64,000 nucleotides of DNA from Halorubrum trapanicum (GTDB taxonomy: Archaea > Halobacteriota > Halobacteria > Halobacteriales > Haloferacaceae): contig NZ_JAGGKE010000002.1 in NCBI RefSeq assembly GCF_017873555.1, positions 62,001 to 126,000 of the forward strand, in the 5' to 3' direction. Positions 1,650-64,000 of this stretch are shown piece by piece. The position numbers and the translations under genes were made by a program. Below the pieces are notes generated by a model. That model searched no databases and was not told the DNA's origin. It worked only from the letters and a program-made list of their open reading frames with translations. Every line of letters starts with the position of its first letter. Position 1 is the first letter of the stretch.

Positions 1650-2104
1650 CTTCCAAAGCCTCAGCCGCGAGGGCGGCGCACGCTCGCTGCGCGCTTCACT
1701 CGGTCGCTCACTTCGTTTGCTCCCTCGTTCCAGTGCTTACGTCGCCTGCGCCGCCCTCGCGGCAGCGTGGCGCTACGCGCCACGGGCAACCGGCGGCTTT
1801 GCCGCCGGTGACTGCCCCTTTGAGTCCCACCCCGCACAGCGCCTCACGCCTCCCCAGCCTCGTCAGTCGCCCGGAGCAACGCGGAGGGCGACTGACTCCA
1901 GCGAGGGACCTTCGGTCCCTCTGGCAGCCGGCGCGTCGCGCCGGCGACAGTGCGAGAGCGAAGCTCTCGCTTGAAACCGGACGGAGTCCGGTGACAGCGA
2001 GGCGCGACGCGCCTCTGGCAGTCGGGCGAAGCCCGACGACCTCGCGCGTGCGACTTCGCGCCCTGCGGGCGCTCGTCGGCACGCGCCACCGCATTGATTT
2101 ATAA
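1650..2104 (+). repeat. Structured intergenic repeat, copy 1 (expanded form)
   Basis: This is the longest of four copies of one repeat family in the window. It opens with the shared TCCAAAGCC-CAGCCG motif at 1651, contains the shared linker TGCCCCTTTGAGTCCCACC near 1813 and CCTCACGCCTCCCCAGCC near 1841, and ends at a TTTATAA motif at 2098-2104. Its main stem is 17 bp and perfect: 1664-1680 pairs with 1747-1763 around a 66-nt loop. A second stem pairs GTCAGTCGCC (1862-1871) with GGCGACTGAC near 1887-1896. There is no credible gene here although open frames cross it. It fills the gap between the aminotransferase and the AI-2E-type permease gene. Confidence 0.85.
1766..2072. repeat. Nine short perfect hairpins with 3-nt loops
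   Basis: Inside repeat copy 1 there are perfect odd palindromes of 15-21 nt with three-base loops at 1766-1784, 1789-1809, 1904-1920, 1927-1945, 1952-1970, 1976-1992, 1999-2015, 2021-2037 and 2058-2072. Six of them (1904-2037) are evenly spaced by 5-6 nt linkers such as CTGGCA, GACAGT, GACAGC and TGGCA. Stem sequences differ from hairpin to hairpin, so this is not a simple tandem repeat. The first two interrupt the junction between the main stem and the TGCCCC linker, which is uninterrupted in copy 4. Confidence 0.85.
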
Positions 2105-13940: not shown

Positions 13941-14283
13941 TTTATAAACGACGTTCGAGTTCGCACGCTACTCGTGAGTGCTCACGCGAGTGCGATGGCG
14001 CGTGCCTGCGAGCGCCCGACGGGCGCGAGGAGCGCGCGCGAGGGAGCGGTGAGCGCTCGCAGAGCGCGAACCGCGAGGCTGGGGAGGTGTGAGGTGCGGT
14101 GCGGTGCGGTGCGGTCGCGGTCGGGTGGGACTCAAAGGGGCAGCCGGGAGGCCGCCGTAGGCGACGCAAGCACCGCAGGGAGCGAACGAAGTGAGCGACC
14201 GAGGAGCGCAGCGAGCGTACAGCGGCCTCCCGGCTGGGGCTTTGGAGGTGTTCGCCGTCGATCCACTGTCTGTCATTTATAAA
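13941..14283 (-). repeat. Structured intergenic repeat, copy 2
   Basis: This is a 343-bp copy bounded at both ends by the palindrome TTTATAAA (13941-13948 and 14276-14283), oriented on the minus strand. The main stem is 14 bp and perfect: AGCCGGGAGGCCGC at 14142-14155 pairs with 14222-14235. The stem sequence differs from the other copies while pairing is kept. Shared linkers (reverse complements of TGCCCCTTTGAGTCCCACC and CCTCCCCAGCCTCG) flank it. A hairpin GCGCCC-GTC-GGGCGC lies near 14013-14027 and a GTGCG pentamer run near 14094-14113. There is no gene inside; open frames crossing it are not believable. Confidence 0.87.
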
Positions 14284-14405
14284 CGAGCCGCCGAAGCATC
14301 GGAGGTGACCCTCGCAGCGGCGACCCTTCTCGACTCGCATGCCGTCGCCAATTCCTCGCGCCCGGTGACGCTATCCATTTCCGCGTCGCGGCCGAAGCGG
14401 CGGTG

Positions 14406-17400
14406 ATGACCGATGACACCGGCGACGACGACGCCGGAAATGATCCTGAGAACCTCTCCTTGGATCGCTTCCACGAGGCGCTCGAAGCCGAGGAGCGCCC
14501 GGTCGCGACCGCGAGCGAGGTCGCCCGCCGACTCGGGACCACGCAGGCCGCGGCCCGCGACGCGCTCGCGACGCTGGTCGACCGCGGCGACGTGGACCGG
14601 CTCAACGTGGAGACCGACCCCGTCGTCTTCTACCCGCGCGACTGGGGCGCGCTGGCGAGCCGCGAGCGCGTCGTGGTCTTCCCGAAGCGCCGCGAGATCG
14701 TCGTCGACCGCCCCACGCAGTACACCCGCGCGCGGCTCTCGCAGTTCGCGAACCTCGTCGACACCACCGGCACCGAACCGGGGACCCGCGGGTACCTCTA
14801 CCGGATCCGGCAGGAGGACGTGTGGGCCGCGCCGTTCGACGACGCCGACGCGCTCGTCGACGCGCTCCGCTCGGTGCTGCCGCGACGATACGACCACCTC
14901 GAGGAGTGGGTGCGCGACCAGTGGCGGCGCGCGCACCGCTTCCGGCTGTACACCCACGCGGACGGCTACGTCGTCCTCGAGGCCGCCTCGGAGAGCCTGA
15001 TGGGGAACGTCGCCGACCAGCACCTCGACGACGACCACCTCCGCGCGCCCATCTCGGACACCGAGGCGTGGGTCAACGAGGCGGCGGTCGCCGCGGTGAA
15101 GCGCGCGCTCTACGACGCCGGCTACCCCGTCGAGGACGACCGCGACCTCGAAACGGGCGACCCCGTCGAGATCGAACTCACGACCGACCTCCGCGACTAC
15201 CAGGCGACGTGGGTCGATGAGTTTCTCGACCGCAAATCGGGCGTGTACGTCGGCCCGCCCGGCTCCGGCAAGACGGTCGCCGCCATCGCGACGATCGCGG
15301 CCGTCGGCGGCGAGACGCTGGTTCTCGTTCCCTCCCGCGAGCTCGCCGGCCAGTGGCGCGAGGAGCTGCTCGACCACTCCACGGTCGACCCCGCCGACAT
15401 CGGGCTATACCACGGCGGAACCAAGGATATCCGCCCCGTTACGATCGCGACCTACCAGATCGCCGGGATGGACCGCCACCGGCGCCTCTTCGACTCCCGC
15501 GAGTGGGGGCTAATCTGCTTCGACGAGTGTTTGACCGGGGATACTATCGTTGAAACGCCCTCCGGAAGGACGACATTCTACGAGCTTGATGAGATATACG
15601 AGTTGGAGGACGGGTGGACGACGGATATCGATCTCTCGGTTCGCACGTTCGACCGTAAGCGGGGAACGTACCGATTCACTCCCGTCACAGGTATATACAA
15701 ATCCACGGCATCGGTCAAACAGATCGAAACACGTCAGGGATATCCGATAACGGCGACCGAGGGACACACTCACTTCGTCTTCGATCCCGAGACCGGGCGT
15801 ATCTCGGAACAAAAAGGCGTCTCGGAGGGTGAATTCGTCGTTAGACCGCAAACGGAGTCAGGGGGGTATACCGATACGGACGCGTCCGACATCGAATCTG
15901 CTGAACTGCTCGGTTGGTTTCTCGGAGACGGGCACCGAGATCGCCACGGGCACGTGAAATTCTCGTTCGCACGGAACAAACGGGAACAGATAGATATTCT
16001 TGAAAAGCTGTGTAACCGGGCCGAGATCGACTATTCGGTCTTTGAGAACAGCAGGGGCGACCTCACGTTATGGTCGAAACGATTTGCGGACCGACTGCCG
16101 TGGGATCTCCCGTCCGGGAGTAAGGCACGGAGAGTGACCGTCCCTCCAGCGGCATACGGATGGCATCCGAATCGAGCCGGTGCGTTGTTGAGAGGGCTCT
16201 TTGATGCCGAGGGATCCGTCGATAAGAAGGGTCGGATACAGTTTAACACAGTCTCAGAGGGCCTCGCAAAGGACGTTATCCTGCTTCTACAGCATCTCGG
16301 CATTCCATCAAGTTATCTTCAGATAGACAGAGAGGGCTCCCACAGCGATCAGCACCGAGTACTGATAGCATCCCGGTACGGTGTGCTGTTCGCTGAGAAA
16401 GTCGGATTCAGGCTACAACACAAATCGGAGCGAATCTCTCTCGGCGAGACTCCTGTGGCGGGGGTACCCGTTGGAACATACCTCGAACGGATCAAAGAGG
16501 ACGTGGAGCTTTCGAACGAACAGATCGCGGATATGATTGGTGTCGCTCGACAGACGATCGGAGATATCATCCGTGGAGACAACCGTCTGGGCCAACGACA
16601 TCTAAGTTCTCTCGTCGAAGGGCTTCGAAGGTACGCACAGACGGATCCGATCTCGGTTAATGCGATGCGTGAGGATGACGGAGTCACGTACGCAGAGATC
16701 GGCGACGAACTAAACGTCTCGACCAGTCACGCGTATACCTTGGTTTCCCGAGCGGATGAGAGAACAGAGAAAGTGATCGACGAACGCGAACAACGCTGTC
16801 GTATGAAGGCGGCACAGCACGCAGATCGGTTGGAGAAGCTCGAAGGTTTACAGATTACCGAGGTCACCTCGGTCACGCAAAAAGGTGTTGAGACAGTTTA
16901 TGACTTCGAGACTCAGGATCATACGTTCGTCGCCGACGGGTATCTGACACACAATTGTCACCACATCACGGCGCCGGTCTTCTCTCGGTCGGCGGAGCTA
17001 CAGGCGAAACACCGGCTCGGTCTCTCGGCGACGCCCGTCAGCGAGACGGGCAGCGAGGAGGAGATATACACCCTGATCGGCCAGCCGATCGGCGCCGACT
17101 GGGACTCGCTCTTCGAGGCCGGCTTCGTCCAGGAGCCGGAAGTGGAGATCCGGTACGTCCCGTGGCGCGACGAGACGGCGCGCAACGAGTACGCCGTCGC
17201 GGACGGCCGGGAGCGCAGACGGCTCGCGGCCGAGAACCCCGCGAAGATCGAGGAGATCCGCTACCTGCTGGCGGCCCACCGCGAGAAGAAGGCGCTCGTC
17301 TTCGTCGAGTACCTCGATCAGGGCGACGCGATCGCCGACGCGCTCGGCGCTCCCTTCATCAGCGGCGAGACGCCGCACCACGAGCGCGCGGAGCTGTTCC

Positions 17401-17741
17401 GGCGGTTCCGAGCGGAGAGCGGCGGTGACGGCGACGCGGCCGACGACGGTCCCGACCGCGGCGGCGCCGCCGGCGACGACCTCGACGTCCTCGTCGTCTC
17501 GCGGGTCGGCGACGAGGGGATCGACCTCCCGAACGCGGAGCTCGCGGTCGTCGCGAGCGGTCTCGGCGGCTCCCGGCGACAGGGCTCGCAGCGCGCCGGG
17601 CGGACGATGCGCCCGACCGGCTCCGCGCTCGTCTACGTCCTCGCGACGCGCGGGTCGAGCGAGGAGGAGTTCGCCCAGCGGCAGATGCGCCACCTCGGTC
17701 GGAAGGGCGTCCGCGTCCGCGAGACGAACGTCGCGGAGTGA
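14406..17741 (+). CDS. XPB/Rad25-like superfamily 2 DNA helicase containing an intein
   Basis: This 1111-residue precursor splices to a helicase of about 635 residues. The N-terminal part (about 1-245) contains a winged-helix-like module (ATASEVARRLGTTQAAARDA). The helicase core has Walker A GPPGSGKT (Lys289), the SRELAGQW motif, a DEAH-type box FDE|CHH interrupted by the intein, motif III GLSATP, and a C-terminal RecA lobe with QRAGRTMRPTG. It belongs to the archaeal XPB/Rad25 DNA-repair helicase group, which unwinds or translocates on DNA. An Asp/Gly-rich insert lies near residues 1010-1025. ATG 14406 follows a GTG at 14403, and either could start translation. Confidence 0.92.
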   Translation: MTDDTGDDDAGNDPENLSLDRFHEALEAEERPVATASEVARRLGTTQAAARDALATLVDRGDVDRLNVETDPVVFYPRDWGALASRERVVVFPKRREIVVDRPTQYTRARLSQFANLVDTTGTEPGTRGYLYRIRQEDVWAAPFDDADALVDALRSVLPRRYDHLEEWVRDQWRRAHRFRLYTHADGYVVLEAASESLMGNVADQHLDDDHLRAPISDTEAWVNEAAVAAVKRALYDAGYPVEDDRDLETGDPVEIELTTDLRDYQATWVDEFLDRKSGVYVGPPGSGKTVAAIATIAAVGGETLVLVPSRELAGQWREELLDHSTVDPADIGLYHGGTKDIRPVTIATYQIAGMDRHRRLFDSREWGLICFDECLTGDTIVETPSGRTTFYELDEIYELEDGWTTDIDLSVRTFDRKRGTYRFTPVTGIYKSTASVKQIETRQGYPITATEGHTHFVFDPETGRISEQKGVSEGEFVVRPQTESGGYTDTDASDIESAELLGWFLGDGHRDRHGHVKFSFARNKREQIDILEKLCNRAEIDYSVFENSRGDLTLWSKRFADRLPWDLPSGSKARRVTVPPAAYGWHPNRAGALLRGLFDAEGSVDKKGRIQFNTVSEGLAKDVILLLQHLGIPSSYLQIDREGSHSDQHRVLIASRYGVLFAEKVGFRLQHKSERISLGETPVAGVPVGTYLERIKEDVELSNEQIADMIGVARQTIGDIIRGDNRLGQRHLSSLVEGLRRYAQTDPISVNAMREDDGVTYAEIGDELNVSTSHAYTLVSRADERTEKVIDEREQRCRMKAAQHADRLEKLEGLQITEVTSVTQKGVETVYDFETQDHTFVADGYLTHNCHHITAPVFSRSAELQAKHRLGLSATPVSETGSEEEIYTLIGQPIGADWDSLFEAGFVQEPEVEIRYVPWRDETARNEYAVADGRERRRLAAENPAKIEEIRYLLAAHREKKALVFVEYLDQGDAIADALGAPFISGETPHHERAELFRRFRAESGGDGDAADDGPDRGGAAGDDLDVLVVSRVGDEGIDLPNAELAVVASGLGGSRRQGSQRAGRTMRPTGSALVYVLATRGSSEEEFAQRQMRHLGRKGVRVRETNVAE
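15528..16955 (+). mobile_element. Intein with LAGLIDADG homing endonuclease and HTH segments
   Basis: This is a 476-residue in-frame intein. Block A starts at Cys in CLTGDTIVETPSG and the C-terminal splice block is FVADGYLTHN, followed by extein Cys (CHHITAP). The endonuclease motifs are LLGWFLGDGHRD and LLRGLFDAEGSVD (two LAGLIDADG motifs with acidic residues retained). Two helix-turn-helix-like segments follow (LSNEQIADMIGVARQTIGDI and VTYAEIGDELNVSTSHAYTL). Insertion splits the DEAH motif between DE and the nucleophile Cys, so the host enzyme is dead unless splicing occurs. Base composition is clearly more A/T-rich than the host gene, indicating recent arrival. Confidence 0.95.
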
Positions 17742-55568: not shown

Positions 55569-55615
55569 GCCAGCGGTGCGCCCACCTCGGCGCACCTGCG
55601 GCACGGGCCGCCGGC

Positions 55616-57517
55616 TCAGATCAGTCCGAGCGCGGTGAGGATCTGGTTCCCGAAGATCATCGCGATCAGCCCGGTCAACATCACGAGCCCGGACGAGACC
55701 GTGATCGTCCGCACCGCGGCGTGTCGGTCGCTGATCGGGACTCGGCTGATAACCGCCTCGGCGACCATCCGGAGGATGCGGCCGCCGTCGAGCGGGAACG
55801 CCGGCAGGCAGTTGAAAAGCGCCAGCTGGATGTTGATCCACCCCGACCAGAAGAGGAGGTTCGCCAGCAGGAACACGCCGCCGCCGAGCGCCGCGAGCGG
55901 CCCCTCGACGACGAAGAAGTTGGTCAACTCGCCGGTGAAGCCCGCGAAGTTGAACGGGAGCCCGAACAGGCTGCCGAGCGGGAGGATGAGCGCGACGAAG
56001 ACGAGACCGAGCGGCGAGTCCGTGATCCCGCCGAGCGGGAGCCCGTCAGCGGCCTCCGCGCCGCCGTCGCCGCCGAGCAGTTCGAGGTACGCGCCCGCGG
56101 GGTACTCGGTGACGCCCACGTCGTCGAGCGCGAGCCCGCTCGTCCCGGGGAAGACGCTGACGCCGATGAACCCGCCGTCGCGGTTCGGGTGCGGGTCGAG
56201 TTCCACGTCGTAGCTGTCGCGCTCGCCGTCGCCGTCGTAGACGGTGACGGGGACGGTCTCGCCCGGCTCGCGCTCGCCGAGGACGGCCGAGAGCGCCTCG
56301 TTGTCGACGACGCGCTCGCCGTCGACCGAGACGACCGTCAGCGGCTCGCCCAGTTCCGCGCCCGCGTCGTGGAGCGGGCCGTCCTCTTGGACGCCGACGA
56401 CGTACGCGCCGATCGGCGCGTCCGGGACGGTGACGGCGCCCTCGCCGTCGGCCGTTTCGACGCCCGTCGCGTTCTCCGCGCCGGGCGCGTCGCGGACCTG
56501 GTCGAGGACGCTCGCGTTGCCGGTCACCGTCAGCGTCGCGCGCTCGTCGTCGCCGACCGCGGCGTAGAAGTCGGACTCGGTCGCGACCGGCTCGCCGTTC
56601 ACGGCCGCGATGGTCACCGGTTCCTCCTCGATGGTCACGCCGAGGGGGTTGCCGCCGGCGGAGCCGACCACCTGTAGCTCGCGGTCGACCGTCAGCGTCT
56701 CCCGCGTGTCGCCGTCGTCGACGGTGAGCGCGACAGAGTCGCCGGCGTCGGCGATCGCGGACTCGAACTCGCCGCTCGTCTCGACCGGGGTCCCCGCAAC
56801 CTCGACGATCCGGTCGCCCTGCGAGATGTCGGCCGCGCCCGCCGGGGAGCCGGGGTTCACCTCGCCGACCGCGTAGCCCGCCGCGGGCGAGATGGCGCCG
56901 ACGACGGGACCGAAGAGGAGCGCGAAGACGACGACCGTGAGCACCGTGTTCGCGGTGACGCCGGCCGCGAACATCCGGGCGCGGGCGCCGCGGGAGGCCT
57001 CCTGTGTCGCCTCCTCGTCGGGCTCGACGAACGCGCCGACCGGGAGCAGCGCGAAGAAGACGAGACCCATCGAGTCGATGTCGATGTCCTCGACCCGGCA
57101 GAGCAGGCCGTGCGCGCCCTCGTGGATCACCATCGCGCCGGCGAGTCCGGCGACGATTTCCGGCGCGACCGACAGCGGGAGGAAGTCGTTGACGCCGGGG
57201 ATGATGAGGAAGTTCTGCGGCTGCTGGATCGCGGAGGGCTGCGCGTTCGTGAACGCCGACATCGCCGACGAGAGGATGAGCGCGAACGACGCCACCATCG
57301 CCACCAAGGCACCCCCCAGCCCGAGGTTGGCGACCGCGCGCCAGAACCGCTTCGGCGCCGCCAGCCGGCCGAGGAAGGCGCGGCCGCGGAGGGTCCGGAG
57401 GGTCAACACCGGTCCGGAGACCCTGACCGCGTCCGGGAGGATCCCCTCGTTCCGCAGCCACATCGCGACCGCGGAGTACGCGAGGATCCCCGTAAGCACC
57501 CAGAACAACGTGTTCAT
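55616..57517 (-). CDS. Site-2 protease (M50) with PDZ-like domains
   Basis: This is a 633-residue intramembrane metalloprotease of the S2P/M50 family. The zinc motif is in VIHEGAHGLLC (HEGAH, residues 132-136) in the second conserved helix, and the NPDG-type third ligand is in AFPLDGGRIL near the C-terminus. Between them lies a long region with two PDZ-like units (PGSPAGAADISQGDRIVEVA and AELGEPLTVVSVDGERVVDN). Members cleave membrane-bound regulators. The N-terminal 60 residues contain helix 1 and a basic stretch (RTLRGRAFLGRLAAPKRFWR). It is a single gene divergent from a small membrane protein. Confidence 0.93.
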   Translation of the reverse strand: MNTLFWVLTGILAYSAVAMWLRNEGILPDAVRVSGPVLTLRTLRGRAFLGRLAAPKRFWRAVANLGLGGALVAMVASFALILSSAMSAFTNAQPSAIQQPQNFLIIPGVNDFLPLSVAPEIVAGLAGAMVIHEGAHGLLCRVEDIDIDSMGLVFFALLPVGAFVEPDEEATQEASRGARARMFAAGVTANTVLTVVVFALLFGPVVGAISPAAGYAVGEVNPGSPAGAADISQGDRIVEVAGTPVETSGEFESAIADAGDSVALTVDDGDTRETLTVDRELQVVGSAGGNPLGVTIEEEPVTIAAVNGEPVATESDFYAAVGDDERATLTVTGNASVLDQVRDAPGAENATGVETADGEGAVTVPDAPIGAYVVGVQEDGPLHDAGAELGEPLTVVSVDGERVVDNEALSAVLGEREPGETVPVTVYDGDGERDSYDVELDPHPNRDGGFIGVSVFPGTSGLALDDVGVTEYPAGAYLELLGGDGGAEAADGLPLGGITDSPLGLVFVALILPLGSLFGLPFNFAGFTGELTNFFVVEGPLAALGGGVFLLANLLFWSGWINIQLALFNCLPAFPLDGGRILRMVAEAVISRVPISDRHAAVRTITVSSGLVMLTGLIAMIFGNQILTALGLI

Positions 57518-57646
57518 TAGCGGCGCCTTAGGTTCCGCCGTTCGTAAGGGGTTCGGTTCCGGGAACCCGTGTCCGGTCGTCGCCCGGGGCGGCGAGAGGC
57601 CGCCGCGAACTCAACACCCAAGTACCCCCCGGTCCAACCGTGGCCC

Positions 57647-57886
57647 ATGATCGCGCTCATCGACTTCGTCTCCCGGGTGGTCGGCGACATCGGGCGGTTC
57701 GTCGACATCTTCCTGAACGACCTGATTCTCGGCGCGGGCGACCCGCTGTCGGCGCTGCTCGTCGTCGTCGGGCAGATCCTGCTCGTCGGCGCCGTCGCCG
57801 TGTTCGGGTACGCAGCGGTCGGCGCGCTGCTCGGGGAAATCGGCGTTGACTTCCCCTCGCTGGGCGGGCGCGGGCGCTCGGAGTAG
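57647..57886 (+). CDS. Small membrane protein, 79 aa
   Basis: This is a 79-residue protein from ATG 57647. An amphipathic N-terminal segment (ALIDFVSRVVGDIGRFVDIF) is followed by one strong hydrophobic helix (LSALLVVVGQILLVGAVAVF), then a short Gly/Ala stretch and a basic-acidic end (GGRGRSE). No family is recognised. It is convergent with the chemotaxis transducer gene (34 bp between stops). Function unknown. Confidence 0.7.
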   Translation: MIALIDFVSRVVGDIGRFVDIFLNDLILGAGDPLSALLVVVGQILLVGAVAVFGYAAVGALLGEIGVDFPSLGGRGRSE

Positions 57887-57920
57887 CCGACGCGGTACCG
57901 CGGTTCGACCGCTCTCCTCC

Positions 57921-59681
57921 TCAGTCGTCGTCGCCCGTCGCCGACCGCGTTCCGGCGCCCGTCGCCGGATCCGGGTCGGTCGAACCCCCGACCGCGTCCG
58001 CGGTCCCTCCGTTTCCGTCCGGTACCTCGAACTCGTTGAGCCGCGCCAGTAGCTCGTCGGACTGATCCGAGAGGGTGTGAACCTGTCCCGTCACCTCGGA
58101 GACGGTCGCGGTCTGCTCCTCGGCCGCCGCCGCGACGGTCTCGGCCTCGGTGGCGGTCTGCTTGCTCACGGAGGCGACGCCGTCGACCATGTCGACGACC
58201 TCCTGGGTTGTGCGCGCCTGATCGTCGGTCGCATCGCTGATCTCCTGGACGGTCTCGTCGACCGTCGTCACGTCCTCGACGACCCCCTCGAACTCCCGCA
58301 GCGTCGACTCGATCGTCTCGACGCCCTCGGCGACCTGCGTCTCCATCGCCTCGGCGTCGGCCGCGGTCTCCGCGGAGGCGGTCTGGACCTCTTCGATGCG
58401 CCCGGAGATCTCCGCGGCGGACTCTCGCGTCTCCTCCGCGAGCGACTTCACCTCGTCCGCGACGACCGCGAACCCGTCGCCGGAGCCGTCGGCGCGCGCC
58501 GCCTCGATGGACGCGTTCAAGGCGAGCAGGTTGGTCTCCTCCGCTATCTCGTCTATCACGGCCGCGATCTCGTCGATCTCGCCGACCCGGTCGGCGAGGT
58601 CGGTGACCGCGGCCGCCGTCTCGCCGATCCGGGTCTCCAACGTCTCCAGTTCCGCGATCGCCTCGGCGGCCTCCTCGCGGCCGGAGCGACCGCGCTCGGC
58701 CGCGTCGCGGGCGGTCTCCGCCGCGTCGTCCGCGCTCGCCGCGATCTCCTCGACCGTCGCCGACAGCGTGTTCATCTCGCCGGCGATCGCCTCCAGCTCG
58801 TCGGTCTGTTCGGCCGCGCCGTCGGAGATCTCCTGGACCGAGCCGGCGACCTCGCCGCTCGCGTCGTCGACCTCGTCCATGCTGGCGCGCACGTCGTCCG
58901 CGGTGCCGGCCACGTCCGCGGTGAACGCGCCGACGTCGCCGAGCGTCTCGCCCAGCGTCGCGACGAGCCGGTTGTAGTTCTCGACGAGTTCGGCGTACCG
59001 CTGCTCGTCGGTCGCCAGCGCCTCCTCGTCGATGGTCGCGGTCAGGTCGCCGTCCTGCGCGCGCTCCGCGGCGTCGCCGAATGCGTCGACGAGCGCCTCA
59101 AGCTCGGTGGTGTAGGCGGCGAGGTTCTCGGCCATCTCGTCGAGCGACTCGCCGAAGGAGCCGGGGACCTCCTCGTCGAGCGCCGGGTCGTCGAACTCCT
59201 GGGCCGCGAGCGCCTCGGCCTGCGCGGAGACGGTGGTGAGGTAGCCGTGGACCTCGCCGAACGCACCGACGAGACTCCCGATCTCGTCGGGTTGGGAGGG
59301 GTCGAGCGCGCTCGCAGCGTCGCCCGGCGCGTTCGCCCCGCCGTCCCAGTTCCCCCCGTCAATCTCCCCCGCGGCGATCGCTTCCGCCTCGCGCTCCAAC
59401 GCCCGAATCGGGCCGGAGAAGTCGCGCCGGACGATGAGCAGCGTGTTGTAGATGGCGACGACGGCCCCGAGGAACAGGGTCCCGGAGACCACGTACGCGG
59501 CGGTCCCGGAGACGAGAAACTGGGTGAGGAAGATGCCGACGGTGACGAGGAACTGGATCCCGACCGCCGTGACGACCTTTCGCTCTATCGACTCCGTGAC
59601 GCCGAGCGCGTCCATCGTCCGCCACAGGAGGGCCTCGTACCGCCCGCGTATCCCCGGGCGGCGCTGTCGTGTCGTGGACAT
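57921..59681 (-). CDS. Methyl-accepting chemotaxis/phototaxis transducer (HAMP + MCP signal)
   Basis: This is a 586-residue transducer. Two N-terminal hydrophobic helices ([20 protein letters not shown] and [20 protein letters not shown]) are separated by only a few residues, so there is no large extracellular sensor domain. A HAMP-like segment ([20 protein letters not shown]) and a long coiled coil follow, then the conserved hairpin tip [20 protein letters not shown] of the cytosolic signalling domain that docks CheA/CheW. The sensory input is probably through the membrane helices or a partner. No che genes are in the window. Confidence 0.93.
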
Positions 59682-59807
59682 GTTCGGACCTCGACGAGAA
59701 CGGGTTATGAAGGTCCCGCCGAGGTTATCACGAGCGATTCTCGATTGTCACCGGCTGAGAATCCGACCGGGGGAGGCGTCGGAGTCGGAGGCCGCCCGGG
59801 TGCGGCC

Positions 59808-60791
59808 TCAGAAGCGGTCGCCGACCGCGTCGGCCGCGAGGTCGACGGCGGTCTCCAGATCCGGGCCGAGCGGCGAGCCGACGACGAGTCCGTCGGCGTG
59901 GTCGGCGACGGCGGCGGCGCGCTCGCGGACGGTCTCGGGGGTGCCCGCCATACAGAACGCGTCGATCATCTCCGGCGTCACGCGCTCGAAGGCGGCCGAG
60001 AACTCGCCGGCGGAGACGCGCTCGCCGATTTCCGTCGCCGCGTCCGGGTCGATCCCGTGACGCTTCAGGACGGGGGGGGCCGCGCCCGCGGTGATAAATG
60101 CGACCGGCGGGCGGGCGGCCTCGCGGGCCGCGGCCTGGTCCTCGGCGACCGAGACGGCGGCGTAGGCGATGAGGTCGAACTCGCCGCGGCCGTCGGGCCT
60201 GTCCTCCAGCCCGTCGTCGACCTGCTCGCGGGCCCACGCGAGGTCCTTCGGATGCGAGCCGTTGAACAGCAGGCCGTCGGCGTGTTTCGCGGCCATCCGG
60301 CACATGTGCGGTCCCTCGCCGCCGACGTGGACCGGAATATCGGCTCCCTGCGGCGGCTCGTAGTTGAGTCCCGCGTCCGTCGCGTCGAAGGCGCCCTCGT
60401 GGTCGACGCGCTCGCCGGCCCACAGCTTCTGGGCGGTCTTGAACGCCTCCAGCACGGGGCGGAGGCCGCGCTCGTCCGCGAGTCCGAGGTTCGCCAGCGT
60501 CGAGGGGTCGCCGGGACCGATCCCGAAGACGGCGCGGCCCCCCGACAGTTCGTCGAGGGTGGCGACCTTCGAGGCGAGCGTCACGGGGTGGGTCTCGTAG
60601 GGGTTCGCGACGCCCGGGCCGAGCCGGACCGACTCCGTGGCGGCCGCGAGCCGCGAGAGGAACGCCCACGGGTCGCGGTTGTTGTAGTGGCACGTCGAGT
60701 AGACGGCGTCGTAGCCGGCCGCCTCGGCGCGGACGCCGAGGTCGACGAGGCGGGACAACTCGTGTTCGGGGGTGAGTTCGATGCCGAGCAT
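59808..60791 (-). CDS. F420-dependent oxidoreductase, Mer-like (LLM family)
   Basis: This is a 327-residue luciferase-like monooxygenase/F420-dependent oxidoreductase. MLGIELTPEHELSRLVDLGV opens the TIM barrel, and YSTCHYNNRDPWAFLSRLAA, GPGVANPYETHPVTLASKVA and GRAVFGIGPGDPSTLANLGL match the methylenetetrahydromethanopterin reductase (Mer) pattern. Haloarchaea use similar enzymes with F420 on folate or other substrates, so the substrate is open. I start it at ATG 60791 (three nt before the cofE stop), not at an upstream in-frame ATG. It is directly downstream of cofE (2-nt gap). Confidence 0.9.
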   Translation of the reverse strand: MLGIELTPEHELSRLVDLGVRAEAAGYDAVYSTCHYNNRDPWAFLSRLAAATESVRLGPGVANPYETHPVTLASKVATLDELSGGRAVFGIGPGDPSTLANLGLADERGLRPVLEAFKTAQKLWAGERVDHEGAFDATDAGLNYEPPQGADIPVHVGGEGPHMCRMAAKHADGLLFNGSHPKDLAWAREQVDDGLEDRPDGRGEFDLIAYAAVSVAEDQAAAREAARPPVAFITAGAAPPVLKRHGIDPDAATEIGERVSAGEFSAAFERVTPEMIDAFCMAGTPETVRERAAAVADHADGLVVGSPLGPDLETAVDLAADAVGDRF

Positions 60792-60793
60792 GG

Positions 60794-61549
60794 TTACTCC
60801 TGAAACTCCCACTTCCGCAGGGCCTGCCGGACGAAGTCGCCCTCGACCTCGCGGAAGTGATTGTCCGAGCCGTCGTGGTCGCCAAACGTCCAGTCGCGGA
60901 CGACGACGACCGGGGTGCCCCCGTCGCCCTCGCCGGCGACGAGGTTGGCGGCCGCGGCGAGTTCGTCGATCACGTTCTGGACGGTGACGCCCATCTCGCG
61001 GCCGTCGCGGTCGCGCTCGCCGCGCCAGTCGCGGCTGGCGGGCAGCCCGGCCCAGCCGATCGCGACCCCGCGCTGCCCGTGGCGGAACGGGCGCCCGCAG
61101 GTGTCGCTGACGACGACTCGGTCGGCGGCGACCCCCTCGCGGATCCGTGCCGCGCTCTCCGAGGGGCGCTCCGGGAGCAACAGCAGGTCGCCGTCGGGGA
61201 CGTTCGACCGGTCTATCCCGGCGTTGACGCCGATGTGCCCGAATCGGGTCGCGGTGAGGAGGAACGGCGCTTCCGTGATCAGCTCCGTCGACTCCTCGAT
61301 GACGGCCTGCGCGAAGCGCGGGTCCTTCTCCTCGCCCACGACCTCCGCGAGGCGGTCTGCGACCGCCTCCGCCCGCTCGCTCGCCGGGAAGTCGTCGAGG
61401 TCGAAGACGCGGCCCTCCGCCTTCGAGACGACCGTGCTGGCGACGACGACCACGTCGTCCTCGCGGAGGTCGACGCGCTCGTCGATCATGGCCGCGAGGT
61501 CGTCGCCCTCCCGGATCTCCGGGAGGTCCGGAACCGCGAACAGCTCCAT
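60794..61549 (-). CDS. cofE: F420-0:L-glutamate ligase (CofE)
   Basis: This is a 251-residue enzyme that adds gamma-linked glutamates to coenzyme F420-0 with GTP. LREDDVVVVASTVVSKAEGR, RFGHIGVNAGIDRSNVPDGD and DTCGRPFRHGQRGVAIGWAG are the CofE signature blocks. Length matches archaeal CofE (about 250). It is the first gene of a two-gene unit with the F420-dependent oxidoreductase, a direct cofactor-supplier and cofactor-user pairing. Divergent from repeat copy 3 and tsr3. ATG 61549 follows a plausible TATA-poor region, so its promoter is not obvious. Confidence 0.95.
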   Translation of the reverse strand: MELFAVPDLPEIREGDDLAAMIDERVDLREDDVVVVASTVVSKAEGRVFDLDDFPASERAEAVADRLAEVVGEEKDPRFAQAVIEESTELITEAPFLLTATRFGHIGVNAGIDRSNVPDGDLLLLPERPSESAARIREGVAADRVVVSDTCGRPFRHGQRGVAIGWAGLPASRDWRGERDRDGREMGVTVQNVIDELAAAANLVAGEGDGGTPVVVVRDWTFGDHDGSDNHFREVEGDFVRQALRKWEFQE

Positions 61550-61660
61550 ACGAACGCCTGCGCGGCGACGAGGAAAAACCCCGCCGGTACCGGGCCGGTT
61601 TGACGGTATCGGGGCCGAGGGGCGGAACGTGGAGCGTGCGACCGAGACGGCGGCGATCGC

Positions 61661-61999
61661 TTATAAAGCGAACTGCGGTGGCGCGCGCCTCAGAGCGCCC
61701 GGTAGGGCGCGAGGAGCGCGTGCGAGGGAGTCGGCCGACCGAAGCGAAGCGGAGGGAGGCCGACGAGGCTGGGGAGGCGTGAGGCTGCGGTGCGGGGCGG
61801 GACTCAAAGGGGCAGTCGGCTCCGGGAAGACGGCCGAAGTAAGCACCGCAGCGAACGGAGTGAGCGAGGAGCGCAACGAGGCCCTCGACCGGAGCCGACT
61901 GCCCCTTTGTAGGGAGTAATCCGCAGCTCGCAGTCAGTTGCGTATAAGTAAGCGGCTGGGGCTTTGGCGGTGTTCACCGTTGCTCCGCACCCCTTATAA
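61661..61999 (-). repeat. Structured intergenic repeat, copy 3
   Basis: This copy is bounded by TTATAAA (61661-61667) and TTATAA (61994-61999). It has the longest stem of all: 20 bp perfect, 61806-61825 with 61889-61908. The stem here includes the AAAGGGGCAG linker and its reverse copy, so the conserved linker is duplicated in inverted form. A hairpin GCGCCC-GGTA-GGGCGC lies at about 61694-61709. About 60 bp (near 61903-61960) look inserted relative to the other copies. It occupies the region between cofE and tsr3. Confidence 0.87.
61994..61999 (+). promoter_or_regulatory. TATA box of tsr3 supplied by repeat edge
   Basis: TTATAA ends 23 nt before the GTG of tsr3 (62023), so its centre is about 26-27 nt from the start codon. 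That is the right spacing for a leaderless haloarchaeal promoter. The same motif is the right edge of the repeat, so the repeat probably provides the core promoter. Confidence 0.65.
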
Positions 62000-62022
62000 C
62001 CCAAACCACCAATCCCGTACTT

Positions 62023-62526
62023 GTGGACCTTCACGTCCGGTACGAGGGCGACGACGACCCGGATAAGTGCACGGCCCGGAAGCTCGCGCGGTTCGACCTC
62101 GCGGAGCTTCACCGCTCGGACCGCGCCACGCCGTACGGGGTCGTGCTCAACCCCCACGCGGAGCGCGCGCTCTCGCCGGCGGACGCCGACCTCGCACGCG
62201 AGAACGCCCTGGTCGCGCTCGACTGTTCGTGGGAGTCGGCCGGCGAGAAGATGTTCAGCCTCCCGGGCGAACACCGCGCGCTCCCGTACCTCGTCGCCGG
62301 CAACCCGGTGAACTTCGGGCGGCCGATGCGACTGACGACGGTCGAGGCGTTCGCCGCGGCGCTGATCGTCCTCGGCGAGCGCGACCACGCCGAGCGGGTC
62401 CTCTCGAAGTTCACGTGGGGCGAGACGTTCCTCGAACTCAACGCGGAGCCGCTCCGGCGGTACGCCGACTGCGAGGACTCCGCGGAGATCGTCGCGATCC
62501 AGCAGGAGTACCTCGACCGGGAGTAA
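62023..62526 (+). CDS. tsr3: Tsr3-like 16S rRNA aminocarboxypropyltransferase (DUF367)
   Basis: This is a 167-residue protein of the Tsr3/DUF367 family. [40 protein letters not shown] and [20 protein letters not shown] match the family blocks. In yeast and archaea Tsr3 transfers the aminocarboxypropyl group from SAM to a hypermodified uridine near the small-subunit decoding site. The start is GTG 62023, supported by a TATA at leaderless spacing. Length is usual. It is a single gene 93 nt before the peroxiredoxin. Confidence 0.93.
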
Positions 62527-62619
62527 CCGCCAGAAGCCTCCGAAACGCCCCCGTGCCGGATCCGGCACCGAACGGGGTCGCGACAAGCCTTTTGCCTGAA
62601 TCGACCGTACCGAGAAGCG

Positions 62620-63093
62620 ATGGTATCCACAGGCGACGCCGCACCGGCGTTCACCGCGACGGTCGGCACGAGCGACCACGAGCCGTTCGACCTCGACGAC
62701 CACATCGGCGACGGGCCGGTCGTGCTCGCGTTCTTCCCCGGCGCGTTCACGCCGCCGTGTACGAACGAGATGATCGCGTTCCAAGAGCGCGCCGACGCGT
62801 TCGCGGACGCCGGTGCGACGCTGTTCGGGATCAGCGCCGACTCGCCGTTCTCGCAGGGCGCGTTCCGCGAGGAACACGGGATCGAGTTCGACCTCGTGAG
62901 CGACATGGCCGGCGACGCGATCCGGGCGTACGGTCTCGAGATCGACATCGCCGACCTCGGGCTTCACGGGATCGCGAACCGCGCCGTGTTCGTCATCGAC
63001 GACGACGGGCAGATCGTCTACGACTGGGTCGCCGACGACCCGACGAACGAACCGGAGTACGAGGCGGTCCTCGACGCCGTCGAGAGCGCTTAA
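62620..63093 (+). CDS. Peroxiredoxin (AhpC/TSA-like, one-Cys)
   Basis: This is a 157-residue thiol peroxidase of the peroxiredoxin fold. The peroxidatic cysteine is Cys47 in GAFTPPCTNEM, with the conserved PxxxT/C pattern. Cys47 is the only cysteine, so it works as a one-Cys enzyme that needs an external thiol. VVLAFFPGAFTPP and LFGISADSPFSQGAF are characteristic. It reduces hydrogen peroxide or organic peroxides in the cytosol. It is a single gene; repeat copy 4 starts about 50 bp after the stop. Confidence 0.93.
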   Translation: MVSTGDAAPAFTATVGTSDHEPFDLDDHIGDGPVVLAFFPGAFTPPCTNEMIAFQERADAFADAGATLFGISADSPFSQGAFREEHGIEFDLVSDMAGDAIRAYGLEIDIADLGLHGIANRAVFVIDDDGQIVYDWVADDPTNEPEYEAVLDAVESA

Positions 63094-63143
63094 ATATCGG
63101 TTTATTTCGGAGAGTCCGGTTTCGTTGCCGTTCCGTCCCGCTT

Positions 63144-63550
63144 TTTATAAATGGTGGATGCGATCGTAGTGACGGATCCCTCCAAAGCCCCAGTCGCTCG
63201 GCTGTACGTAGGTGTCTGCTGATCGACGACGAATCCCTCCAAAGCCCCAGTCGCTCGGCTGTACGTAGGTGTCTGCTGATCGACGACGAATCCCTCCAAA
63301 GCCCCAGTCGCGAGGCGGGCGCACGCTCGTTGCGCTCCTCGGTCGCTCACTTCGTTCGCTCCCTGCGGTGCTTACATCGCCTGCGCCCGCCTCGCGACTG
63401 CCCCTTTGAGTCCCACCCGACCGCGACCGCACCGCAGCCTCACGCCTCCCCAGCCTCGTCGGCCTCCCTCCGCTTCGCTCCGGTCGGCCGACTCCCTCGC
63501 ACGCGCTGCCTCGCGGCCGCCTGTGGCGGCCGCTCGCAGGCGCGCGCCAG
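63144..63550 (+). repeat. Structured intergenic repeat, copy 4
   Basis: This copy begins at TTTATAAA (63144-63151). Its main stem is 19 bp perfect: 63305-63323 pairs with 63382-63400. The linkers TGCCCCTTTGAGTCCCACC (63399-63417) and CCTCACGCCTCCCCAGCC (63438-63455) follow, then a hairpin GCGGCCGCC-TGT-GGCGGCCGC at 63513-63533. The shared CGCGCC end is at about 63542-63547, but the final TTTATAA is missing. The start carries two extra 57-bp units. It lies between the peroxiredoxin and DUF5518 genes, with no gene inside. Confidence 0.87.
63177..63290 (+). repeat. 57-bp tandem duplication at the head of copy 4
   Basis: Two nearly identical 57-bp units starting TCCCTCCAAAGCCCCAGTCG (63177 and 63234) are followed by a third start at 63291 that runs into the repeat proper. 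Each unit includes the TCCAAAGCCCCAG opening motif and GCTGATCGACGACG. This looks like replication slippage or stepwise insertion at the 5' end of the element. Confidence 0.9.
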
Positions 63551-63605
63551 TAACGAAGCCTGCTCTTTTCGATTCCTCAAAACCGACACTCTCGAAAAGC
63601 GGCGT

Positions 63606-63968
63606 TTACTCTCCGACCACGCCGCCGATGGCCCCCGCGAGCGCGGAGTCGACCGCGAACAGCAGCGTCAGGAACAGCCCGACGACCAACACGCCGGCGC
63701 CGCCGAGCAGGCTCCCGAGCGGCCCGCCGACCAGTCCGACGAGGCTCCCGAACGCGGCGAGCGCGAGGGTGATAACGATCCCGCTCACCGACCCCGCCAG
63801 CAGGCCGTGCCAGAACCCGGAGAGCAGGCCGCCGCCGGCGAGGTAGCCCGCGACGAACCCGCCGACCAGCCCGGCGGCCGCGTGCCCCACGACCGGAACG
63901 GCCATTGCCAAGGCGCCGGCGATCAGCATCACCACGAACCCGTAGCCGACGGCGCGCCAGTCTGTCAT
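63606..63968 (-). CDS. DUF5518-type membrane protein
   Basis: This 120-residue protein is almost entirely hydrophobic, with four to five segments rich in Gly/Ala (VGYGFVVMLIAGALAMAVPV, then HAAAGLVGGFVAGYLAGGGL, then LAGSVSGIVITLALAAFGSL, then VLVVGLFLTLLFAVDSALAG). This Gly-rich four-helix pattern is that of haloarchaeal DUF5518 proteins, whose function is not known. The last residues (GGVVGE) are polar. It starts at ATG 63968, close to the right edge. Confidence 0.85.
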   Translation of the reverse strand: MTDWRAVGYGFVVMLIAGALAMAVPVVGHAAAGLVGGFVAGYLAGGGLLSGFWHGLLAGSVSGIVITLALAAFGSLVGLVGGPLGSLLGGAGVLVVGLFLTLLFAVDSALAGAIGGVVGE

Positions 63969-64000
63969 GCGCCGAGGTAGCCGTCCCGCGGATAAATACT

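Follow-up and report, generated by a model that had tools for sequence, protein, structure and literature searches.

The four repeats of the window (the whole stretch of 64,000 nucleotides analysed here, spanning C2:62001-126000 in a Halorubrum-like genome of 3.08 Mb) belong to a real, multi-copy family of dispersed, structured and intergenic elements that is class-wide in Halobacteria, with covarying stems, a strand-specific structure and a presence that varies between species. As far as could be checked, the repeat is neither named nor annotated. A literature search conducted mostly without subscription journals returned no description of it, and Rfam 15 yielded no family match, only a tRNA being recognised elsewhere in the window. 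The best Rfam match on copy 4 was DnaX (E 0.29), and a known Rfam RNA was rejected because no covariance-model match lay above the gathering score.

The sequence-only reading had located four copies in the window, each with a long self-complementary stem. All four are present at about those positions, and their long stems essentially match the earlier description. A covariance model (R1), for which mainly other genera supplied the sequences, matched exactly these four copies in the 64 kb window, with scores of 101 (copy 3), 85 (copy 4), 83 (copy 2) and 50 bits (copy 1), and the next-best match reached 13.5 bits at an E-value of 0.7. The C-rich motif order is found on the plus strand in copies 1 and 4 and on the minus strand in copies 2 and 3. 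The copies, their loci and their parts are the following:

Copy 1, divergent gap between an aminotransferase gene and an AI-2E-type transporter gene
1650..2104, whole element, with the box A side on the left and the box C/stem C side on the right
1654..1769, minus strand, core hairpin on the folded (G-rich) strand, R1 match of 50.4 bits
1812..1831, plus strand, box B, CTGCCCCTTTGAGTCCCACC, from the motif scan
1903..2044 (approximate limits), plus strand, nested array of small perfect hairpins lying between stems B and C, from reading the sequence
2098..2104, TTTATAA at the stem C end
Copy 2, tandem gap upstream of an XPB-type helicase gene
13941..14282, whole element, box A side right, TTTATAA at both ends
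14133..14244, plus strand, core hairpin on the folded strand, R1 match of 82.7 bits
14124..14143, minus strand, box B, from the motif scan
14231..14248, minus strand, box A (CCTCCAAAGCCCCAGCCG)
Copy 3, divergent gap between cofE-like and tsr3-like genes
61661..61999, whole element, box A side right
61805..61909, plus strand, core hairpin on the folded strand, R1 match of 101.3 bits
61953..61970, minus strand, second box A unit, upstream of the first at a distance of 57 bp
Copy 4, convergent gap between peroxiredoxin and DUF5518 genes, many congeners having the same offset
63144..63551, whole element, box A side left, TTTATAA at the start
63179..63310, plus strand, box A repeated as three tandem units at 57 bp spacing
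63297..63408, minus strand, core hairpin on the folded strand, R1 match of 85.4 bits, DNA fold z = -5
63398..63417, plus strand, box B, from the motif scan
63441..63551, plus strand, box C followed by stems B and C, ending near ..GGCGCGCGCC

In copy 3 (element E29), box A is atypical and fully complementary, as GGG replaces CCC and pairing of the arms continues across the internal loop. Nested at recurring places within elements are arrays of small perfect hairpins with stems of 8-9 bp and loops of 3-5 nt, in the window at 1765-2050 and also in L029, L131, L157 and L297, with linkers such as TGGCA or GACA and with loops in both inverted versions (TTC and GAA). The density of perfect 9-bp hairpins in element regions was about 5 times that of the remaining intergenic DNA, and some of these hairpins represent the element's own stem C.

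When the window's own genome was searched with the 20 bases of CTGCCCCTTTGAGTCCCACC, allowing up to 2 mismatches, 115 matches were obtained and 0 in the reversed control, which excludes chance. The 45 full elements identified in 1.19 Mb of contiguous sequence share a rigid architecture. Box A (CCTCCAAAGCCCCAGYCG) is often repeated, in this set with a spacing of exactly 57 bp, and is followed by the long stem and then by box B (CTGCCCCTTTGAGTCCCRCC), which lies 105-106 bp after box A in most elements. Box C (CACGCCTCCCCAGCCTCG) is mostly positioned 33-44 bp beyond box B, and stems B and C come thereafter. The conserved stretch extends from TTTATAA at its left limit to ..GGCACGCGCCACCGC at its right limit. 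The TTTATAA-type motifs reported on the window copies turned out to be borne by the element itself: they occurred within the 20 nt at the box A (left) side in 7 of 17 convergent-gap copies versus 1 of 1385 background windows, and TATA motifs were present at the right end in 3 of 13 copies. Several contigs of this genome (G000) end inside copies (C3:106, C5:69, C9:160, C10:159, C20:165 and C6:188824), indicating that the repeats break genome assembly, which should be taken as a warning. Some such contig ends (L020, L026) run into poly-G/poly-C junk.

The core of the element, which measures 350-450 bp as a whole, is a rod-like hairpin of about 105 nt on the G-rich strand. Its base helix consists of GAAAG or CAAAG, with CAAAG...CTTTG closing the hairpin over a conserved 3x3 loop (GGG/GGG), and above this base a long stem of variable sequence with purine-rich internal loops leads to an apex of 2-bp steps split by tandem G.A. 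The sequence TGCCCCTTTG, previously taken for a linker, belongs in part to the base helix, where it pairs with an upstream CAAAG, and the strand quoted earlier is the complement of the one that is structurally selected. The proposal that matched changes in the stems imply selection on a folded form held over 38 and over 101 copies. RNAalifold analysis of 38 modules gave 31 pairs, 27 of them with two-sided changes. In this set 94.4% of the cells paired as opposed to 69.6 in shuffled alignments, and covariation amounted to 0.625, compared to 0.178 in shuffled and 0.07-0.12 in slid alignments, a value as high being reached in 0 of 500 shuffles. In 101 modules aligned with the covariance model, an alignment that leans toward its own structure, 96.0% of the cells were paired at a covariation of 0.668. 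Compensatory changes as expected of a structured single-stranded RNA are, accordingly, a property of the family.

Searching haloarchaeal genomes with a covariance model built from 38 modules of many genera, as the earlier reading had suggested, revealed many further copies: the family was recovered from 125 of the 145 class genomes searched, in 50 of 58 genera, and the richest genomes contained at least 26-27 copies among the matches listed. Overall, copy numbers range from 0 to about 180 per genome. No match occurred outside the class Halobacteria in the phylum sample searched. The core hairpin pattern AAAGCCCC..GCCCCTTT matched 250 of 391 Halobacteria genomes, in 63 of 86 genera, against 0-1 matches in the reversed control, and among the named carriers are Haloarcula, Halobaculum, Haladaptatus, Natrinema, Halorussus, Halopiger and Halobellus. 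Although this search pattern itself imposes the 3x3 loop, a Halorubrum-dominated set of 122 elements that had been collected with a loose box A retained it as well. For the pair outside AAAG/CTTT, Halorubrum uses C-G (102/106), and G-C is found elsewhere (53/54). Within Haloarcula-type genomes the hairpins are arranged in inverted pairs, the outer ends of which are complementary but variable, without target duplication. The viral contigs and phages searched gave no match and the plasmids few, none of the latter under an annotated feature, and a 607 kb Halorubrum ezzemoulense plasmid in the collection was not among them. A virus- or plasmid-borne element was rejected on this basis, and such a distribution is unusual for an active mobile element.

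The non-standard pairs of the stems strongly indicate that one strand folds and is selected, since they are distributed asymmetrically between the strands. Among 216 modules, whose main stem comprised 2696 Watson-Crick pairs, departures on the G-rich strand were 65 G.U versus 12 A.C, and 22 to 9 (p = 0.03) after omission of the three heaviest positions, the cells of these counts not being independent events. The 101-module set displayed 99 G.U versus 28 A.C, with 19 of 25 informative columns pointing that way (sign test, p = 0.015). As a control, the tRNAs of the same genome had 29 G.U and 0 A.C among 481. An excess of G.U over A.C on one strand only, as expected of structured single-stranded RNA, is therefore also found here, and the loops of the G-rich strand contain purine-rich tandem G.A. 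A reading of 122 elements in which the departures appeared to be DNA-level and strand-symmetric was overturned by the larger sets, in which the A.C excess on the C-rich strand is clear. Wobble asymmetry may thus serve as a simple test for the selected strand of a palindromic repeat.

We favour that the selected strand acts as RNA or else as single-stranded DNA. Of these, RNA is preferred because of the wobble asymmetry, the RNA-like conservation of loops and the element-borne TATA motifs, and single-stranded DNA is the main rival because G.U accounts for about 2-3% of element pairs versus 6% in tRNAs of the same genome. The G-rich strand would, in the latter case, fold into a hairpin whenever single-stranded, similar to integron attC sites or IS200/605- and REP-like repeats, and a recombinase or transposase would move the element. 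The combination of a strand-specific structure with variable stem sequence is consistent with this, as are the inverted pairs lacking target duplication in Haloarcula-type genomes and a DNA fold z of about -5; tandem G.A and a GAA apex suit DNA hairpins. However, Y1 transposase (PF01797) gave no match in G006, G009, G011, G015, G186, G193 and G291, all of which carry 50-100 copies, so that this enzyme was rejected as the required mover. In addition, no linked recombinase gene was seen, and the absence from viruses and rarity on plasmids also speak against a DNA hairpin of this kind, which appears a rather improbable, if serious, alternative to RNA.

According to the gene calls, made with a simple codon-based gene caller, 0 of 45 elements are located inside genes, confirming that the copies are intergenic; that they occur in both orientations is equally apparent from the tandem gaps, where orientation relative to transcription was 9:9. 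Ordinary genes flank the window copies (aminotransferase, AI-2E-type transporter, XPB-type helicase, cofE-like, tsr3-like, peroxiredoxin and DUF5518), and the XPB-like helicase gene at 14403-17741 contains an apparent intein with a LAGLIDADG domain. Among the 44 elements with both neighbours called, 17 occupy convergent, 18 tandem and 9 divergent gaps, against a background of 219 convergent, 708 tandem and 216 divergent gene pairs (1143 in total). The resulting enrichment in convergent gaps (p = 0.003), together with the finding that an element can end directly at a stop codon, would be expected if the repeat acted in cis on flanking genes as a 3' UTR stabiliser, terminator or insulator with a REP/BIME-like function. 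Such a role is nevertheless unlikely, as orientation in tandem gaps is neutral, divergent gaps are not depleted, copies in the same gap differ between species and three congeners gave no motif match. On account of the neutral orientation, the upstream gene's terminator or UTR was rejected as an identity of the repeat, and a regulatory RNA of neighbouring genes is improbable; thus, from the initial suggestion of a spreading element or a regulatory RNA family, the dispersed family is retained and the regulation of neighbours is not.

Still less probable is a double-stranded cruciform that serves, strand-symmetrically, as a recombination site or in chromosome architecture. The long near-perfect palindromes, the depletion on secondary replicons and one inversion breakpoint lying where two relatives carry a copy could be explained in this way, but the mismatches are strand-asymmetric and conserved tandem mismatches interrupt the palindrome, which speaks against the symmetric DNA cruciform considered earlier. 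Also, the chromosomal spacing of the copies is random (CV 0.89 versus 0.93 in the null), and regular spacing as an architectural marker was rejected.

The peroxiredoxin (copies 3 and 4) and helicase (copy 2) gaps were compared across 30 genomes of the genus. The orthologous gaps contained a full element at the same offset, a partial element, one in the opposite orientation or none, demonstrating, in answer to a comparison proposed beforehand, that copies are gained and lost between species. Copies therefore persist from one species to another, with stems that differ. The copy 1 site is empty in G148, G011 and G133 and occupied in G006 and G153. At 55.6 kb, G153 and G038 carry an element whose end abuts the stop codon, and the site is empty elsewhere. 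Most congeners examined have the region 55573-64000 inverted relative to the 1-24 kb part, with a breakpoint near this same 55.6 kb site. Copy 3 replaces a segment of about 330 bp with a small ORF found in six relatives; at this site G148, G011, G006, G133, G153 and G038 have a short acidic ORF (about 35 aa) between the cofE-like and tsr3-like genes that is missing in the window genome. No clean target duplication was found with these relatives, which are too diverged to define an exact one. In the copy 2 gap of L153, L155, L160, L162, L166 and L174, a small additional gene, zinc-finger-like and conserved between species, lies beside the element or replaces it, and L134 and L146 have apparent IS1341-type (TnpB) elements downstream of the peroxiredoxin gene, in the gap where others carry the repeat.

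Copies also exchange sequence. Gene conversion is suggested by elements E08 and E12, situated 1 kb apart, whose right halves are identical. Box A was rewritten by box B (CCC to GGG) in window copy 3 and in E28, the reverse occurred in L147, and the inner loop of L027 is inverted; some of the arm matching, as in window copy 3, comes from such arm-to-arm copying. While this copying contributes locally, template switching at palindromes as the sole cause of complementarity, with no selection on structure, is highly improbable and largely refuted, as it would be strand-symmetric and would remove both the conserved 3x3 loop and the regularly placed tandem mismatches that persist across genera.

We give an about even chance to the interpretation that the repeats form a Halobacteria-specific family of dispersed, structured and non-autonomous elements, the action as RNA being included. 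The best supported mechanism is that the single-stranded G-rich sequence would fold and be read by a host factor. The G-rich strand would probably be transcribed as a small structured RNA, with the TATA-like boxes at the element ends as putative promoters, and host factors may recognise its fold. The element itself may be a selfish or tolerated passenger that is moved in trans, also within a species, by a DNA-processing enzyme of host or foreign origin, and its copies would then be homogenised by gene conversion and arm-to-arm copying; its lifestyle might resemble that of REP/BIME or SINE-type repeats. Retrotransposition by a canonical reverse transcriptase was rejected, as none (PF00078) was detected in 52 congeners (0/52), which also separates the element from SINE-like repeats that depend on such an enzyme in the genome. 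A bolder and distinctly speculative version holds that the copies are class-wide, self-promoted genes for a structured ncRNA that reach about 180 per genome, share a conserved 3D fold and a trans-acting protein partner, and spread independently of Y1 transposase and with no detectable reverse transcriptase. If true, Archaea would possess a mobile or domesticated structured RNA element of a new kind. In either case, so widespread a haloarchaeal structured repeat provides a system for studying how repeats spread without detectable reverse transcriptase or required Y1 transposase, and for asking which protein reads the fold.

Among known systems, the REP/BIME repeats of enterobacteria are intergenic, number hundreds per genome, are palindromic with conserved mismatches, occur singly or as inverted pairs with an enrichment between convergent genes, and are mobilised by RAYT/Y1 transposases. 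The haloarchaeal element likewise consists of dispersed intergenic palindromes in both orientations, but it is much longer, carries TATA-like boxes and has a sequence specific to an archaeal class, and a cognate RAYT-type Y1 transposase was undetected in several rich carriers. Integron attC sites have a strand-specific folded form in which structure is conserved and stem sequence varies. The same holds here, whereas linked gene cassettes or an integrase were not seen, and boxes and architecture differ. Covarying stems, conserved purine-rich internal loops and the preference for G.U over A.C on one strand are shared with the structured ncRNAs of Rfam, from which the family departs in having no Rfam 15 match and in its widely varying copy number. 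The PATEs, MITEs and SMRs of Haloquadratum walsbyi are short, transposase-free dispersed elements with palindromes, PATEs and SMRs lacking target duplication, and PATEs carry near-terminal palindromes of the IS605 type (PMC3119063). Palindromes are present in our element, too; in contrast to PATEs, however, the whole element is structured and its stems covary between copies. It also differs from a MITE, defined by target duplication and by conserved terminal inverted repeats that a transposon shares, in that the ends of Haloarcula-type pairs are complementary but variable and lack a duplication, and the ends of the Halorubrum elements share only TATA-like motifs.
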